The notes beneath the pieces were generated by a model. That model saw only the letters and a program-made list of their open reading frames with translations. It did no database searches and was not told where the DNA came from. This document shows positions 156 through 29,183 of a stretch of 30,010 nucleotides of DNA, in pieces; positions within the stretch are counted from its first letter, which is position 1, and each line of letters begins with the position of its first letter. Made by a program: the position numbers and the translations under genes. Where the stretch lies: positions 1-30,010 of IMG/VR virus record IMGVR_UViG_3300030107_004410; one strand, written 5' to 3'. The stretch comes from a virus.

Positions 156-955
156 GCTGAGCCCTCCTCAAGCTGGAGCACCACCCGGCCCACCACCTCG
201 GCCACCTGAGGCACTACGGCATTCCCTAGACATCGCAATCGGTCCACCCGTCTGGGAACCCCATCAACCACTCGACCCATGCTGTGTTCAGGTGCCCAGG
301 GTTCTCGGCTCTCTGTAATCGCTCGCCTGAAAGTTCTGGCAACTTGCCTTGAGCTTCGTATGGGTGTTTTCCGTTCAGCATCACCATCGCGTCCCCTTCC
401 GATAGTGCCCCGCTCAAGACCTTTGCCCTGAGCAACCTCACATTGCCCTCGCATGGTCGGCATGGGGAGGCCGTAGGAGTAGGCCACAATAAAGAGCCGG
501 TCACGGCGATGAGGGGCGCCGACGGCGGCAGCTGGTATGCAGTCCCAGATCGCATCATACCCGCACGCGGCCAGGTCTCCGAGAACTCGACCCATCCCCC
601 CAGAAAGGAGCGCTGAGACGTTCTCCACAACGACGTATCGGGGTCGTAGCTCGCCAATGATGCGCGCATATTCGGACCACAGTCCGCTGCGCTCTCCGTT
701 GATGCCTGCTCGCTTTCCGGCGACGGACAAGTCCTGGCAGGGAAAGCCGCCGATGCACATATCGACGGGTGGCAGGTTGTGGGCTCCGACTTGTCTGACA
801 TCTTCATACCTCTGTGCTTTGGGCCAGTGCTTGGCGAGTACCGCTCTAGCATATGGATTCTGCTCCACCTGGAAGACTGTGTGCGCGCCTGGGATGGCTC
901 TCTCGAGGCCAAGCTCTAGGCCGCCGATGCCACTAAACAGGGATCCGATCCTCAT
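152..955 (-). CDS. dcm: DNA (cytosine-5-)-methyltransferase, phage Dcm type
   Basis: The 267-residue product carries the ordered motifs of C5-cytosine methyltransferases: motif I FSGIGG (7-12, SAM binding), motif IV GGFPCQ with catalytic Cys73, motif VI ENV (111-113), motif VIII RRDRLF (150-155), a short target-recognition region (~160-225), then LGNAVVPQ (243-250). It is compact, but no core motif is missing. The ATG at 955 overlaps the upstream stop by four bases. No restriction endonuclease gene is visible nearby, so it is probably an orphan enzyme that shields phage DNA from host restriction. The target sequence cannot be read from the protein. The same DNA contains a second plausible coding frame (226-801). 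Confidence 0.93.
   Translation of the reverse strand: MRIGSLFSGIGGLELGLERAIPGAHTVFQVEQNPYARAVLAKHWPKAQRYEDVRQVGAHNLPPVDMCIGGFPCQDLSVAGKRAGINGERSGLWSEYARIIGELRPRYVVVENVSALLSGGMGRVLGDLAACGYDAIWDCIPAAAVGAPHRRDRLFIVAYSYGLPMPTMRGQCEVAQGKGLERGTIGRGRDGDAERKTPIRSSRQVARTFRRAITESREPWAPEHSMGRVVDGVPRRVDRLRCLGNAVVPQVAEVVGRVVLQLEEGSA
226..801 (-). CDS. Candidate overprinted gene within dcm (WPTP / WVEWLMGFP family)
   Basis: A 191-residue frame lies on the same strand as dcm, shifted by one base. It starts at ATG 801, seven bases after AGAGG. It is open further upstream to 912, but no better start was seen. It contains FPARTCPSPE, SYDPDTSLWRTSQ, EFSETWPRAGMMRSGTAYQL, LWPTPTAS and, near the C-terminus, LNTAWVEWLMGFPDGWTDC. 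I recognise these as conserved motifs of phage proteins often found beside, or annotated as, cytosine methyltransferases. Because dcm motifs IV, VI, VIII and X are all intact in the other frame, this is either true dual coding or a recurring shadow of conserved dcm codons. Function is unknown. Confidence 0.4.
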   Translation of the reverse strand: MSDKSEPTTCHPSICASAAFPARTCPSPESEQASTESAADCGPNMRASLASYDPDTSLWRTSQRSFLGGWVEFSETWPRAGMMRSGTAYQLPPSAPLIAVTGSLLWPTPTASPCRPCEGNVRLLRAKVLSGALSEGDAMVMLNGKHPYEAQGKLPELSGERLQRAENPGHLNTAWVEWLMGFPDGWTDCDV

Positions 956-1167
956 GACTGCCACTCAGCATCCAGGTATTCGTTCAGGTGCGCCTTGAAC
1001 CGCTCGATGGTCCTCACTGCTATGTCCCTTTCCCGGCGGGCTCCCTCGATCTGAATCTCCAAGGCGCGAACCTCAGCCACCAGCCACTCCATGTCTCTGA
1101 CGGTGTTGGCGTTGTAGCCCCTCTCCTTCATTACCTTGAGGCGGCGCTTTACATCCTGCAGGGTCAT
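952..1167 (-). CDS. Small coiled-coil protein, unknown function
   Basis: This 71-residue protein is almost wholly helical and highly charged. Heptad-like hydrophobic spacing across residues ~20-65 (WLVAEVRALEIQIEGARRER) suggests a coiled coil, so it may be a dimer or a helical partner of another protein. The ATG overlaps the stop of the FmdB-like gene by four bases (ATGA, 1164-1167), and its own stop overlaps the dcm start in the same way, so all three are probably translationally coupled. I recognise no family. Confidence 0.7.
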   Translation of the reverse strand: MTLQDVKRRLKVMKERGYNANTVRDMEWLVAEVRALEIQIEGARRERDIAVRTIERFKAHLNEYLDAEWQS

Positions 1168-1373
1168 CCGTCCCCCTTGAGTCCGTAGTTGTCACGGGCC
1201 CAGCCATCCCCGGCCAAGTGAAACGATCCGACGCTGACCTGCCGGGTCATGTAGGGCGTCTCAGGTGGTAGGACCTCATCACAGGGACCACAGACGGGCG
1301 CGGGGTCGCTGTGCTTCTGGAGCACCTCCACCCGGTGGCCGCATGCCTGGCATTTGTATTCGTACAGCGGCAT
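1164..1373 (-). CDS. FmdB-type zinc-ribbon protein
   Basis: The 69-residue product opens with MPLYEYKCQACGHRVEVLQK and continues with a second pair, CGPC (28-31). This is the hallmark of the FmdB-family zinc ribbon (Cys8, Cys11, then a CxxC). The family is small and poorly understood. Members are proposed to bind nucleic acid or act as regulators, and copies occur in many phage genomes. The start shares one base with the upstream stop (TAATG). It lies between the helicase-loader-like gene and a coiled-coil gene, which puts it in the replication/modification operon without defining its role. Confidence 0.8.
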   Translation of the reverse strand: MPLYEYKCQACGHRVEVLQKHSDPAPVCGPCDEVLPPETPYMTRQVSVGSFHLAGDGWARDNYGLKGDG

Positions 1374-26294: not shown

Positions 26295-27671
26295 CTATCC
26301 AACGGCGAAGGATGCCGACGATCCAAGCTTGGTCACGAGGTATCGCATGGCGTCAAGAAGGTGGTCCGCCTGGCGTGGCTTTGGTTGGTCTCTAGCCTCA
26401 CCGCTGCCCCGCTCATCCCACACGTAGCCCTCGATCTCTCGGATGAAGTGGGAGCAGGTGGCGAACACCTGAAGCCCTGGGCGGCCTTCCACATCAGGGG
26501 CCAGGCGCTCCGCGATCGAGTTGATGCCACGGGCCACCGAGCCCTTCCCCTTCTTGGCTGCGGCGTTGGCCAGCCCATGGTCCCGCGCCAAGGCCAGCCG
26601 TGCCCCCCGGTCCTCAGGGTCGCACACGATCCACTCCGGCTGCCCCCACTTGGCTATCAGTGCGTGGATGGCTTTGGCGTGCTCGCTGAGCGTGGCCTGT
26701 GCTCGGTAGTGCTCATCGACCAGCACCAGGCGGTCCCGCTTGTGGTCGAGGGCACACACCACCACGGCCGTCGGTGCGCGGGTTCCGAAGTCCATCCCCA
26801 GATAGATCGGCCAGTCCTCTGGGATCGGCTGTGGCTCGATGACGTGGAGATGCCGGGCCCAGTCCTGGTACACCCGGCCCTCCAGGGTGGTCCACTCACC
26901 ACGGGCACGGGCGGCGCGCTCGTGCGGTCCGTACTGCCTGAGTAGGCGAGCCAGGGCACCCGGTGGGAGGTGGGGGTTGTCCTCTCCGTGGATGTAGTGG
27001 ACGCGCACCTCCTCGGAGGGCTGAGCTATCCAGCGGTCATGTAGCCAGGTCATCCCCCGCAGTGGGGTCATGCTGAACAACATGCGGCCGCGTCTATCCA
27101 CCAGGCGCATCAGGCACTCGTTGACCACGCCCTGATCGGCGGGCTCCTCGTCGAACCAGCACAGGTCCACGGCGCTGCCCTGGAAGCTCTCGCGACCAGC
27201 CGCCACGCTGAGGAATATCACCCTGCCGCCGCCAGGTATCTGGACCTCGGCGCGCCCGTAGCCCTCCCGGTTGCGCCACTTGCTCCCTGCTGGCAGGTAC
27301 TCAGCGATGGCGGGGCGCATGTACTCCCGCCCATCTGGCGAGTCCAGGGCGATAGCCCACACGGTCGCGGGCCGGTCTGGTAGCACCTCTGGGTCTATGT
27401 CGTTGATCCGGCACCACCGCGCGGCGTCTGGGTGGTTCCTGCCCATCGCATAGGCCACCGAGAACATGGCGGATCCGCGTGTTTTGCCTGCCCGGTTGCC
27501 TCCGCATACCACGGTCACCAGCGGCCCAAGCTGCTGGAACGCGCGGCGCTGGGAGGTCCGTGGTAGCTCCCGATCCCATAGCCGGGCATAGGCCAGCGGG
27601 TGGTCCTTCTTGTGCTGCTGTAGGCTCTGAAGCTGACCGAGCAGGGGAGCCAGGGCGGCGGTGGTGCTCAC
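26295..27671 (-). CDS. terL: Terminase large subunit
   Basis: GTG 27671 (VSTTAALAPLL) overlaps the methyltransferase stop by four bases (GTGA); the longer frame to 27935 lies inside that gene. The 458-residue product has the ATPase Walker A GGNRAGKT (57-64), Walker B VDLCWFDEE (168-176) and coupling motif LFSMTPLRG (198-206). A C-terminal RNase H-type nuclease follows (YLGMDFGTRAPT with Asp294, CDPED with Asp351, ADHLLDAMRY with Asp437/Asp440). It is the packaging motor and genome-cutting enzyme, acting on the portal encoded next. Confidence 0.95.
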   Translation of the reverse strand: MSTTAALAPLLGQLQSLQQHKKDHPLAYARLWDRELPRTSQRRAFQQLGPLVTVVCGGNRAGKTRGSAMFSVAYAMGRNHPDAARWCRINDIDPEVLPDRPATVWAIALDSPDGREYMRPAIAEYLPAGSKWRNREGYGRAEVQIPGGGRVIFLSVAAGRESFQGSAVDLCWFDEEPADQGVVNECLMRLVDRRGRMLFSMTPLRGMTWLHDRWIAQPSEEVRVHYIHGEDNPHLPPGALARLLRQYGPHERAARARGEWTTLEGRVYQDWARHLHVIEPQPIPEDWPIYLGMDFGTRAPTAVVVCALDHKRDRLVLVDEHYRAQATLSEHAKAIHALIAKWGQPEWIVCDPEDRGARLALARDHGLANAAAKKGKGSVARGINSIAERLAPDVEGRPGLQVFATCSHFIREIEGYVWDERGSGEARDQPKPRQADHLLDAMRYLVTKLGSSASFAVG

Positions 27672-28930
27672 TCCAGCGCACCGACACCGGGCTCTTGGCC
27701 GTGGTCCTTGGCCCACCGGGTCCAGCGGCGGCGGATGACATCGCAGTATCGTGGGTCCAGTTCGATCAGACGTGCGCGGCGGCCGGTCATGGCGCACGCG
27801 ATCAGGGTGGAGCCACTGCCGCCGAACGGATCGCCGACCAGCCAGTTGCCCTCGGTGCTGTTCTCCAGCATCGGACGGATAAGGTCGATTGGCTTCATGG
27901 TCGGGTGTTCCTTCGATGCGCCGGGCCGCTTGCACTCCAGCACCGTGTCAACGGTGCGGGGCACCGGGTGGAGCCTGGCGGCCCCATCGAACCACCCGTG
28001 GAAGATGGGTTCGTGACGATAGTGGTAGTCGCCACGGCCCATCACAAAGCGGTCCTTCACCCAGATTAGCATCCGCTTCCATCCAACGCGCACCATCACT
28101 GGAACGATGGCGCTCCATAAATCTGGACGATCAGCCGAACACGCATACCACGCCGCGCCGGGCTCGCTGATCCGCTGCAACTGGGCGAAGGCATCCGACC
28201 ACAGTGCAGCCGTATCCTCAGGTGTCATGGAATCGTTGCTGACCATCAGGCCATCCGTGCGACGGTTCAGCGCCTTTGCCTCATCGACCGACTTCACCGC
28301 ATTAACTGACACCCCATAAGGCGGATCCGTCCACACGCACCGCAACCGCTCATCACCCACCAAAGCATCCCACGCAGCCGGGTCCGTCGAGTCTCCACAC
28401 ACCAGCCGGTGCGGTCCCAGTTCGTACACCTCGCCGGGCTTGCTGTGGACCTCCTCCTGGAGATCGGGCACGTCGTCCTCGCTGCCGTCTGGCTCGATGG
28501 GCGGTGGTGCCGTCAGGGCGTCCAGTTCCTCAGTGCTCCACCCCAGCCCATCCAGGTCCACCCCATCGGCGTCAAGCTCCCGCAGGATGTCCTCCAGGCC
28601 ACCGGTCCAATCGGCAAGCTCCCCCAGCCGGTTGTCAGCCAGCGCCAGCAGCTTTGCATCAGCGGGGTCCAGGTCCATCACCCGGACGGGTACGCGGTCC
28701 AGTCCCAGGCTCTGGGCTGCCTTGTGCCTGGTGTGACCGGCCACGATCTCTAGCCCTCCACCGTCGATAGGCCGGGCGATGATGGGCGAGGCAAACCCGA
28801 ACCGCTTGATGCTCTTGGCCACCTCCGGCACGGCGTGCTCGTTGTCGCGCGGGTTGTCTTCCCACGGCGTCAGGCTCTCGATGGGCAGCCACTCAGCGGC
28901 CGCCTCTGTTGTGTCATCCTGCTTTCGCAT
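27668..28930 (-). CDS. ParB-like domain fused to DNA (N4/N6) methyltransferase
   Basis: ATG 28930 (MRKQDDTTEA) follows GAGGA. Residues ~13-140 are a ParB/Srx-type N-terminal domain (WLPIESLTPWEDNPRDN, IVAGHTRHKAAQSLG with the GHTRH box at 65-69). Residues ~170-410 are an amino-methyltransferase with VCGDST, catalytic DPPY (202-205), HPTMKPIDLI (342-351) and the SAM motif DPFGGSGST (367-375). The order DPPY before FGGSGS fits the beta class. This architecture is common in phages. It methylates adenine or N4-cytosine, possibly to resist restriction. It sits unusually between packaging genes, coupled to terL. No endonuclease partner was seen. Confidence 0.9.
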   Translation of the reverse strand: MRKQDDTTEAAAEWLPIESLTPWEDNPRDNEHAVPEVAKSIKRFGFASPIIARPIDGGGLEIVAGHTRHKAAQSLGLDRVPVRVMDLDPADAKLLALADNRLGELADWTGGLEDILRELDADGVDLDGLGWSTEELDALTAPPPIEPDGSEDDVPDLQEEVHSKPGEVYELGPHRLVCGDSTDPAAWDALVGDERLRCVWTDPPYGVSVNAVKSVDEAKALNRRTDGLMVSNDSMTPEDTAALWSDAFAQLQRISEPGAAWYACSADRPDLWSAIVPVMVRVGWKRMLIWVKDRFVMGRGDYHYRHEPIFHGWFDGAARLHPVPRTVDTVLECKRPGASKEHPTMKPIDLIRPMLENSTEGNWLVGDPFGGSGSTLIACAMTGRRARLIELDPRYCDVIRRRWTRWAKDHGQEPGVGALE

Positions 28931-29183
28931 GTTGTCCTCTGCTCTTGGTTGGTTGTGGAACCGCGTCCAGGGCACGGCGTCCGGTTGGCGTGACTCTGAG
29001 CCGGCGACCGTACGCCATCAGCCCACGCTGTTGGAGCGCGTACACGGCCGCCCGCACGCGGGTCCAGGGCTCGTCCATGTCATCCGCCATCGACTTGATC
29101 GACCACTCACCCGGATCCGATGCGGCCCAGACCAGCACCCGCCACCGCAGGGTGTCACGCATGATCATCGGGGGCGCGGTCAC
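28914..29183 (-). CDS. Winged-helix DNA-binding protein
   Basis: The start is taken as GTG 29183 (GTGA overlap with the upstream stop, AAAGGG seven bases upstream), giving 89 residues; TTG 29201 and ATG 29168 are alternatives. RWRVLVWAASDPGEWSIKSM, then EPWTRVRAAVYALQQRGLM and RRLRVTPTGRRAL form helix-helix-recognition helix and wing, a typical wHTH. It lies between terminase genes and the ParB-methyltransferase. It may regulate the late operon or assist packaging recognition (inference). Confidence 0.72.
   Translation of the reverse strand: MTAPPMIMRDTLRWRVLVWAASDPGEWSIKSMADDMDEPWTRVRAAVYALQQRGLMAYGRRLRVTPTGRRALDAVPQPTKSRGQHAKAG

Follow-up and report, generated by a model that had tools for sequence, protein, structure and literature searches.

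Does one stretch of phage DNA encode two conserved proteins on the same strand, or is the open frame inside a cytosine methyltransferase gene an echo of the gene that it overlaps? The question is raised by a dcm-type gene in the window, i.e. the whole stretch of 30,010 nucleotides of virus DNA analysed here (positions 1 to 30,010 of IMG/VR record IMGVR_UViG_3300030107_004410). An earlier note on this DNA had proposed conserved gene overprinting, with a 'hidden partner' of the modification enzyme in the second frame. Phage methyltransferase genes of this kind usually serve to shield phage DNA from host restriction.

Layout of the locus

The dcm frame, referred to as alpha, occupies positions 152–964 on the minus strand and encodes a C5-cytosine methyltransferase of 270 aa with motifs I–VIII and X and without motif IX. 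It starts at GTG 964, with ATG 955 as an alternative. In the +1 frame relative to dcm, the same strand is open from 226 to 912, for 228–229 codons, as the earlier note had described with 228 codons; every peptide that it quoted was found. In synonymous-codon shuffles of the window dcm, the longest +1 run has a mean of 102 codons (p = 0.003), and the same shuffles give an ordinary open run for the +2 frame (p = 0.38). Nested within alpha's +1 frame lies beta (226–801, minus strand), a predicted chain of 191 aa from ATG 801. A Shine-Dalgarno-like AGAGG (809–813, minus strand) precedes this ATG with a 7-base spacer, again in agreement with the earlier description. The second frame is real and, judged from its sequence, very probably a translated protein.

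Two other genes of the window may be mentioned here. A small Zn_ribbon_8 protein (PF09723) is encoded at 1164–1373 (minus strand), close upstream of the methyltransferase gene and on the same strand. At 27668–28975 (minus strand), a ParB-like N-terminal domain is fused to an N6/N4 DNA methyltransferase (PF02195 and PF01555), which gives the phage a second DNA methyltransferase.

Distribution of the methyltransferase motifs

Alpha matches PF00145 with an E-value of 3e-43 (148.9 bits, cut-off 22) over residues 4–168 only, which corresponds to motifs I–VIII and includes FPCQ and ENV. A profile of alpha (36 relatives) aligns with M.HhaI 13–178 and, weakly, with 298–318, the motif X region, placing alpha in the PF00145 family on motifs I–VIII and X. 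Motif IX was found in the alpha frame neither by the PF00145 match nor by the comparison of the profile with M.HhaI, which is unaligned between 13–178 and 298–318. Because motif IX is not in the same chain, alpha is regarded here as one subunit and not as a complete enzyme. This corrects the earlier statement that all dcm motifs are intact, as motif IX is located in the second frame. The example given of bases shared by two motif sets does not hold either: the dcm residues over WVEWLMGFPDGWTDC are GRVVDGVPRRVDRLR, and GNAVVPQ lies downstream of the second frame's stop.

Beta matched no Pfam or NCBIfam family, and its profile found no methyltransferase among the PDB sequences. It does match phrog_1008 (5.5e-31), as do the betas of related loci; the label of this PHROG, 'DNA methyltransferase', is silent on a second, overprinted subunit. 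The most conserved block of beta is G-LNPxWVEWLMGFPxGWTD. In the window, LNTAWVEWLMGFPDGWTDC (235–291, minus strand) is the equivalent of motif IX, based on profile comparison of the block with single-chain enzymes (hhalign, 96%, E-value 1.6e-9) and on locus L204, where it shares its frame with motif X. Aligned with M.HhaI, the single-chain profile puts the block at motif IX (LHPRECARVMGYPDSY); the score is weak (-2.3 bits), but the match is colinear. Upstream, LWPTPTAS (466–489, minus strand) carries an LPTP motif kept in the beta alignment. In single-chain enzymes, the dcm frame itself carries LPTP, past motif VIII and ahead of motif IX, which is the place of the target-recognition region. 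Between these two elements, EGNVRLLRAKVLSGALSEGDAMVMLNGKHPYEAQG (346–450, minus strand) is probably a target-recognition cassette, L204 having the same one. An AlphaFold model of beta alone reached a pLDDT of 60.6 and a pTM of 0.26, the C-terminal helix with motif IX being modelled better. Such a poor model would be understandable for a chain that needs alpha in order to fold, though it is no proof of this.

Both frames are open and conserved, the motifs are split between them and, as described below, selection acts on both. We consider it highly likely that the product of the locus is a C5-cytosine DNA methyltransferase of two subunits, with beta overprinted in alpha's +1 frame. Alpha would provide AdoMet binding and catalysis (motif X and motifs I–VIII, FPCQ and ENV included), and beta the target-recognition region and motif IX. 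We infer that translation of beta starts inside the alpha gene, the probable start being ATG 801 served by a separate ribosome-binding site, and that the two chains join into one heterodimeric enzyme, as in M.EcoHK31I. The overprinting would be mutual, with the N-terminal part of beta over alpha motifs IV–VIII and the C-terminal linker of alpha over the recognition region and motif IX of beta. The enzyme would then methylate the phage genome and serve against host restriction. The 'hidden partner' would be a real one, but rather the methyltransferase's own second subunit than an unrelated protein.

Interleaved, single-chain and split relatives

With the second frame (ORF2) as query, viral contigs yielded at least 567 relatives. 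Genomes spread over many phyla yielded 363, and of the 80 best of these, 71 are interleaved like the window. Among the loci retrieved by dcm alone, 35 of 37 carry the second frame and are interleaved, and two are single-chain. In the type of Salmonella S9-5 and Acinetobacter ABMM1 (L007, L008 and many of L153–L201), the second frame reaches nearly to the dcm start; in L007 and L008 it starts four bases after it.

In the single-chain relatives from actinophages (Tweety gp72, L127–L148), the dcm frame contains the block LNPELTEWMMGWPAGWVT immediately ahead of GNGVVPQ, so that motif IX is followed in frame by GNGVVPQQA. The structure predicted for a single-chain enzyme can be superposed on M.HhaI along its length (Z 20.2, rmsd 3.5, 235 aligned residues), with low model confidence in the recognition region. 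The catalytic half and the motif IX block of Mycobacterium phage Tweety gp72 and related actinophage enzymes are homologous to those of the window. Unlike the window, these enzymes have motifs I–X in one frame, and their +1 stops are at chance overall.

A third form is represented by L204, from an archaeal MAG. Here, the dcm frame closes at a stop (1827) shortly past motif VIII, and stops also interrupt the remaining forward frames. Only the beta frame stays open, taking in the recognition cassette, LNPDWVEWLMGWPVGWT and then RASRLKAIGNGQVPAQ, so that motifs IX and X stand together in it. Window beta is identical to this alpha-free stretch at 31 of 66 residues (E-value 2e-15). The two have the cassette MLNGKxPxxAQG in common, which overlies unrelated alpha residues in the window and in L204 lies mostly past the point where the alpha frame has closed. 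Since beta-type sequence exists in L204 without alpha above it, the C-terminal half of beta is not a dcm shadow, and homologues free of an overlapping dcm, which the earlier note had considered informative, do exist. L146, L149, L150 and L151 are split like L204.

Several further observations were made among the relatives. In L280 (1791–1793) and L281 (1704–1706), a single in-frame stop breaks alpha, and beta is open throughout. The alpha frame is also broken in phage Llama (L002, 1753–1769) and its close relatives when compared with Spikelee (L003); because of this interruption, the methyltransferase is listed there as two genes, 74 and 75. In L127–L152, the part of the dcm frame that lies between motifs VIII and IX consists of repeated LPTP cassettes of about 45 residues; they vary in order and number, as if shuffled between phages, and are seen in both frames. 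WNPARGVWET of the single-chain genes was considered as a homologue of beta YDPDTSLWRTSQ (hhalign 99%). This homology is suggestive only, because an HMM built from the WNPARGVWET stretch by itself gave scores no better than those of synonymous shuffles; the two stretches overlie different dcm residues.

In the single-chain loci L001, L127–L148 and L152, some 100 codons of the +1 frame form an open ORF under codon constraint over dcm residues 121–180, where 4 stops are found against 18 expected and the codon ratio is 2.0. It reads WNPARGVWETTQ..SETWPSSGSMRSG..LPTPRAS, over the dcm insertion EPCPWCVGD. This short ORF is not accounted for by the two-subunit model.

That single-chain enzymes seem to keep this ORF, despite having motif IX in the dcm frame, would suit a beta protein that is genuinely overprinted but serves a different purpose, e.g. 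to regulate or inhibit either the methyltransferase or host restriction. The same can be said of the N-terminal part of beta (YDPxTSxWRTSQ..), which has no counterpart in M.HhaI-like enzymes. However, the best-conserved part of beta is motif IX, which is absent from alpha and needed there, and the split relatives join the motif IX part directly to motif X. A separate function for beta is therefore very unlikely, and a second subunit remains the preferred reading.

Selection on both frames

Loci were collected in three ways, so that ORF2 was not always needed for retrieval, and synonymous shuffles served as the null. The sets used for stop counts hold only genes with a detectable ORF2, by which few genes are lost, given the share of interleaved genes among the loci retrieved by dcm alone. 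For the 27 genes retrieved by the window dcm, 67 stops were observed in the +1 frame against 158 expected (+2 frame: 270/279). The corresponding numbers are 34 against 206 for the 41 genes retrieved by a single-chain dcm (+2: 550/485) and 263 against 485 for the 70 genes retrieved by ORF2 (+2: 858/817). No depletion was seen in the +1 frame of 21 single-chain control genes (207 observed, 200 expected). Across 116 window-like interleaved genes, dcm residues 91–225 contain no +1 stop at all, compared to about 305 expected. The depletion sets in near dcm residues 46–75, and stops reappear after residue 246, where beta ends. Conserved overprinting, as first proposed, is thus supported even for loci that were retrieved by dcm alone, and the frequent second-frame stops in related dcm genes that would have spoken against it are not seen, stops being rarer than expected.

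How often a shared amino acid has an identical codon, relative to expectation, was determined for gene pairs that are 40–62% identical over residues 1–170. The ratio is about 1.0 at residues 1–60, 1.1 at 61–100, 1.5–1.8 at 101–140, 1.2 at 141–160 and 1.7–2.0 at 161–200. It reaches 2.56 at 226–245, under motif IX, and falls to 0.99–1.14 past the beta stop; these ratios are given without p-values because the gene pairs are not independent. Residues 101–120 (1.49) include alpha LRPRYVVVENVSA, which is overlaid by beta YDPDTSLWRTSQ (613–648, minus strand). The strongest double constraint is found in alpha residues 226–245 (the HSMGRVVDGVPRRVDRLRC region, 230–289, minus strand), the bases of which are common with beta motif IX. 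For example, the codon of Gly235 is GGG in 158 of 160 genes, whereas Gly247, just past the end of beta, uses all four. The ratio of third- to first-position differences is 0.72 under motif IX versus about 2 (1.9–2.15) outside beta, and 2.46 at motif IX of single-chain genes. This is the expected pattern, as the third positions of alpha are the second positions of beta in a +1 overlap. Synonymous constraint in dcm beyond the amino-acid demand, another expectation of the earlier note, is found exactly under the conserved motifs of the second frame. In other words, purifying selection acts on the second frame beyond the demands of the first.

A Shine-Dalgarno-like sequence with an ATG in the +1 frame is present within dcm residues 49–58 in 33 of the 116 window-like genes (9.1 expected). 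The ATG alone is hardly enriched there (73 versus 67); ATG 801 of the window is at residue 55.

Synonymous shuffling is an imperfect null: in one version of the tests, similarity above the shuffles appears in the +2 frame too. In particular, the mean ORF2 similarity exceeded the shuffles with z 69 in the +1 frame, yet with z 28 in the +2 frame. As this test is not frame-specific enough, it was replaced by the stop, codon and position tests. Similarity of ORF2 among phages was likewise rejected as stand-alone evidence, since single-chain controls score 45–91 bits without an intact beta.

These scores, obtained against the ORF2 profile by the +1 frame under motifs V–VIII, are what would be expected if the second frame were an untranslated shadow, with its similarity due to conserved dcm residues and shared codon choice. 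The FPARTC region has little extra constraint as well (same-codon ratio 1.12), and this N-terminal part of beta may be just a leader. Part of what the earlier note put forward is weak evidence: FPARTC and SETWPRAGMMRSG mirror conserved residues of dcm and count for little on their own. The SETWP..GMMRSG block is largely a dcm shadow, because single-chain enzymes show it too. Nevertheless, a shadow is very unlikely to explain the whole frame: the stop depletion is confined to the +1 frame of interleaved genes, the third-position constraint ends at the beta stop, the C-terminal segment is kept in L204 even though the dcm frame has ended there, and the dcm frame is without motif IX.

Programmed frameshifting, by which alpha would be read through motif VIII and slip to +1 to yield a fusion of motifs I–VIII, the recognition region and motif IX, would restore the order that single-chain relatives have in one frame, and the alpha/beta overlap runs in the required direction, but it has hardly any likelihood, because the window fusion would be without motif X (which lies past the end of beta), the +1 frame is open from about residue 61 and codon-constrained from about residue 101, far upstream of motif VIII and unneeded for a slip, and a Shine-Dalgarno sequence with ATG is enriched near residue 55.

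Comparison with known systems

The two-subunit reading has known counterparts. Lee, Kam & Shaw are reported to have described in 1995 that the small chain of M.EcoHK31I is encoded within the large-chain gene in another frame; by this definition, the window has a nested small-subunit gene too, with beta nested in alpha. M.EcoHK31I (YGGCCR) is a natural two-subunit enzyme with motifs I–VIII and X in the large chain and IX in the small one (PMC3404938), and the window, likened to it by description, shows the same division. The recognition domain of M.EcoHK31I is placed in the large subunit (PMC3404938), whereas LPTP and the cassettes of the window are apparently in beta. The correspondence may thus be inexact, as the recognition region sits in the other subunit. 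In M.AquI, two chains form one enzyme that is split after motif VIII (PMC3404938). This layout is also present, with an overlap, in L204, L146 and L149–L151. L204 and L146 have the M.AquI-type small subunit with motifs IX and X; the window does not, since its motif X is in alpha and its beta is nested and not following.

Escherichia phage K1ind1 (GU196279) has a nested same-strand pair in which both frames are annotated, ORF29 as a C-specific methylase and ORF28 as a 'putative Mte8-like protein' (L282, 1065–1889 and 1153–1845). Its beta is homologous to window beta over the C-terminal half (E-value 7e-9). K1ind1 represents a more distant branch, with an SPPCQ alpha and a beta with LNPAHSRWLMGYPPEWD, in which it differs from the window. 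The kind of layout is hence already known from M.EcoHK31I and the K1ind1 annotation, and the window adds a member. No paper describing the interleaved layout in phages was found in a partial coverage of the literature, and no earlier description of how common it is was found in the literature searched.

Public records of other relatives show one frame only: beta in Rctr197k (L005), ReT1v-2 (L004) and Mwe-JY08 (L006, partial), and alpha in Salmonella S9-5 (L007).

Implications for the family

Annotation pipelines retain one frame and lose its partner. Many 'orphan' C5-methyltransferases of phages and bacteria seem complete but are without motif IX. When cloned from the annotated frame alone or recoded for expression, such genes would probably be dead, because the second subunit shares the same bases. 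The family also offers about 150 distinct, widely diverged long same-strand overlaps with a probable function on both sides, i.e. a test set for overlap-detection methods.

On a broader level, we would give even weight for and against the proposal that the interleaved layout, with subunits mutually overprinted, is no oddity of a single E. coli strain but the prevailing and ancient form of a very large methyltransferase family of phages and bacteria, whose genes switch between single-chain, split and interleaved forms, perhaps via indels in the LPTP recognition cassettes by which motif IX changes frame. The natural single-chain and split forms provide material for studying how overprinting begins and ends.
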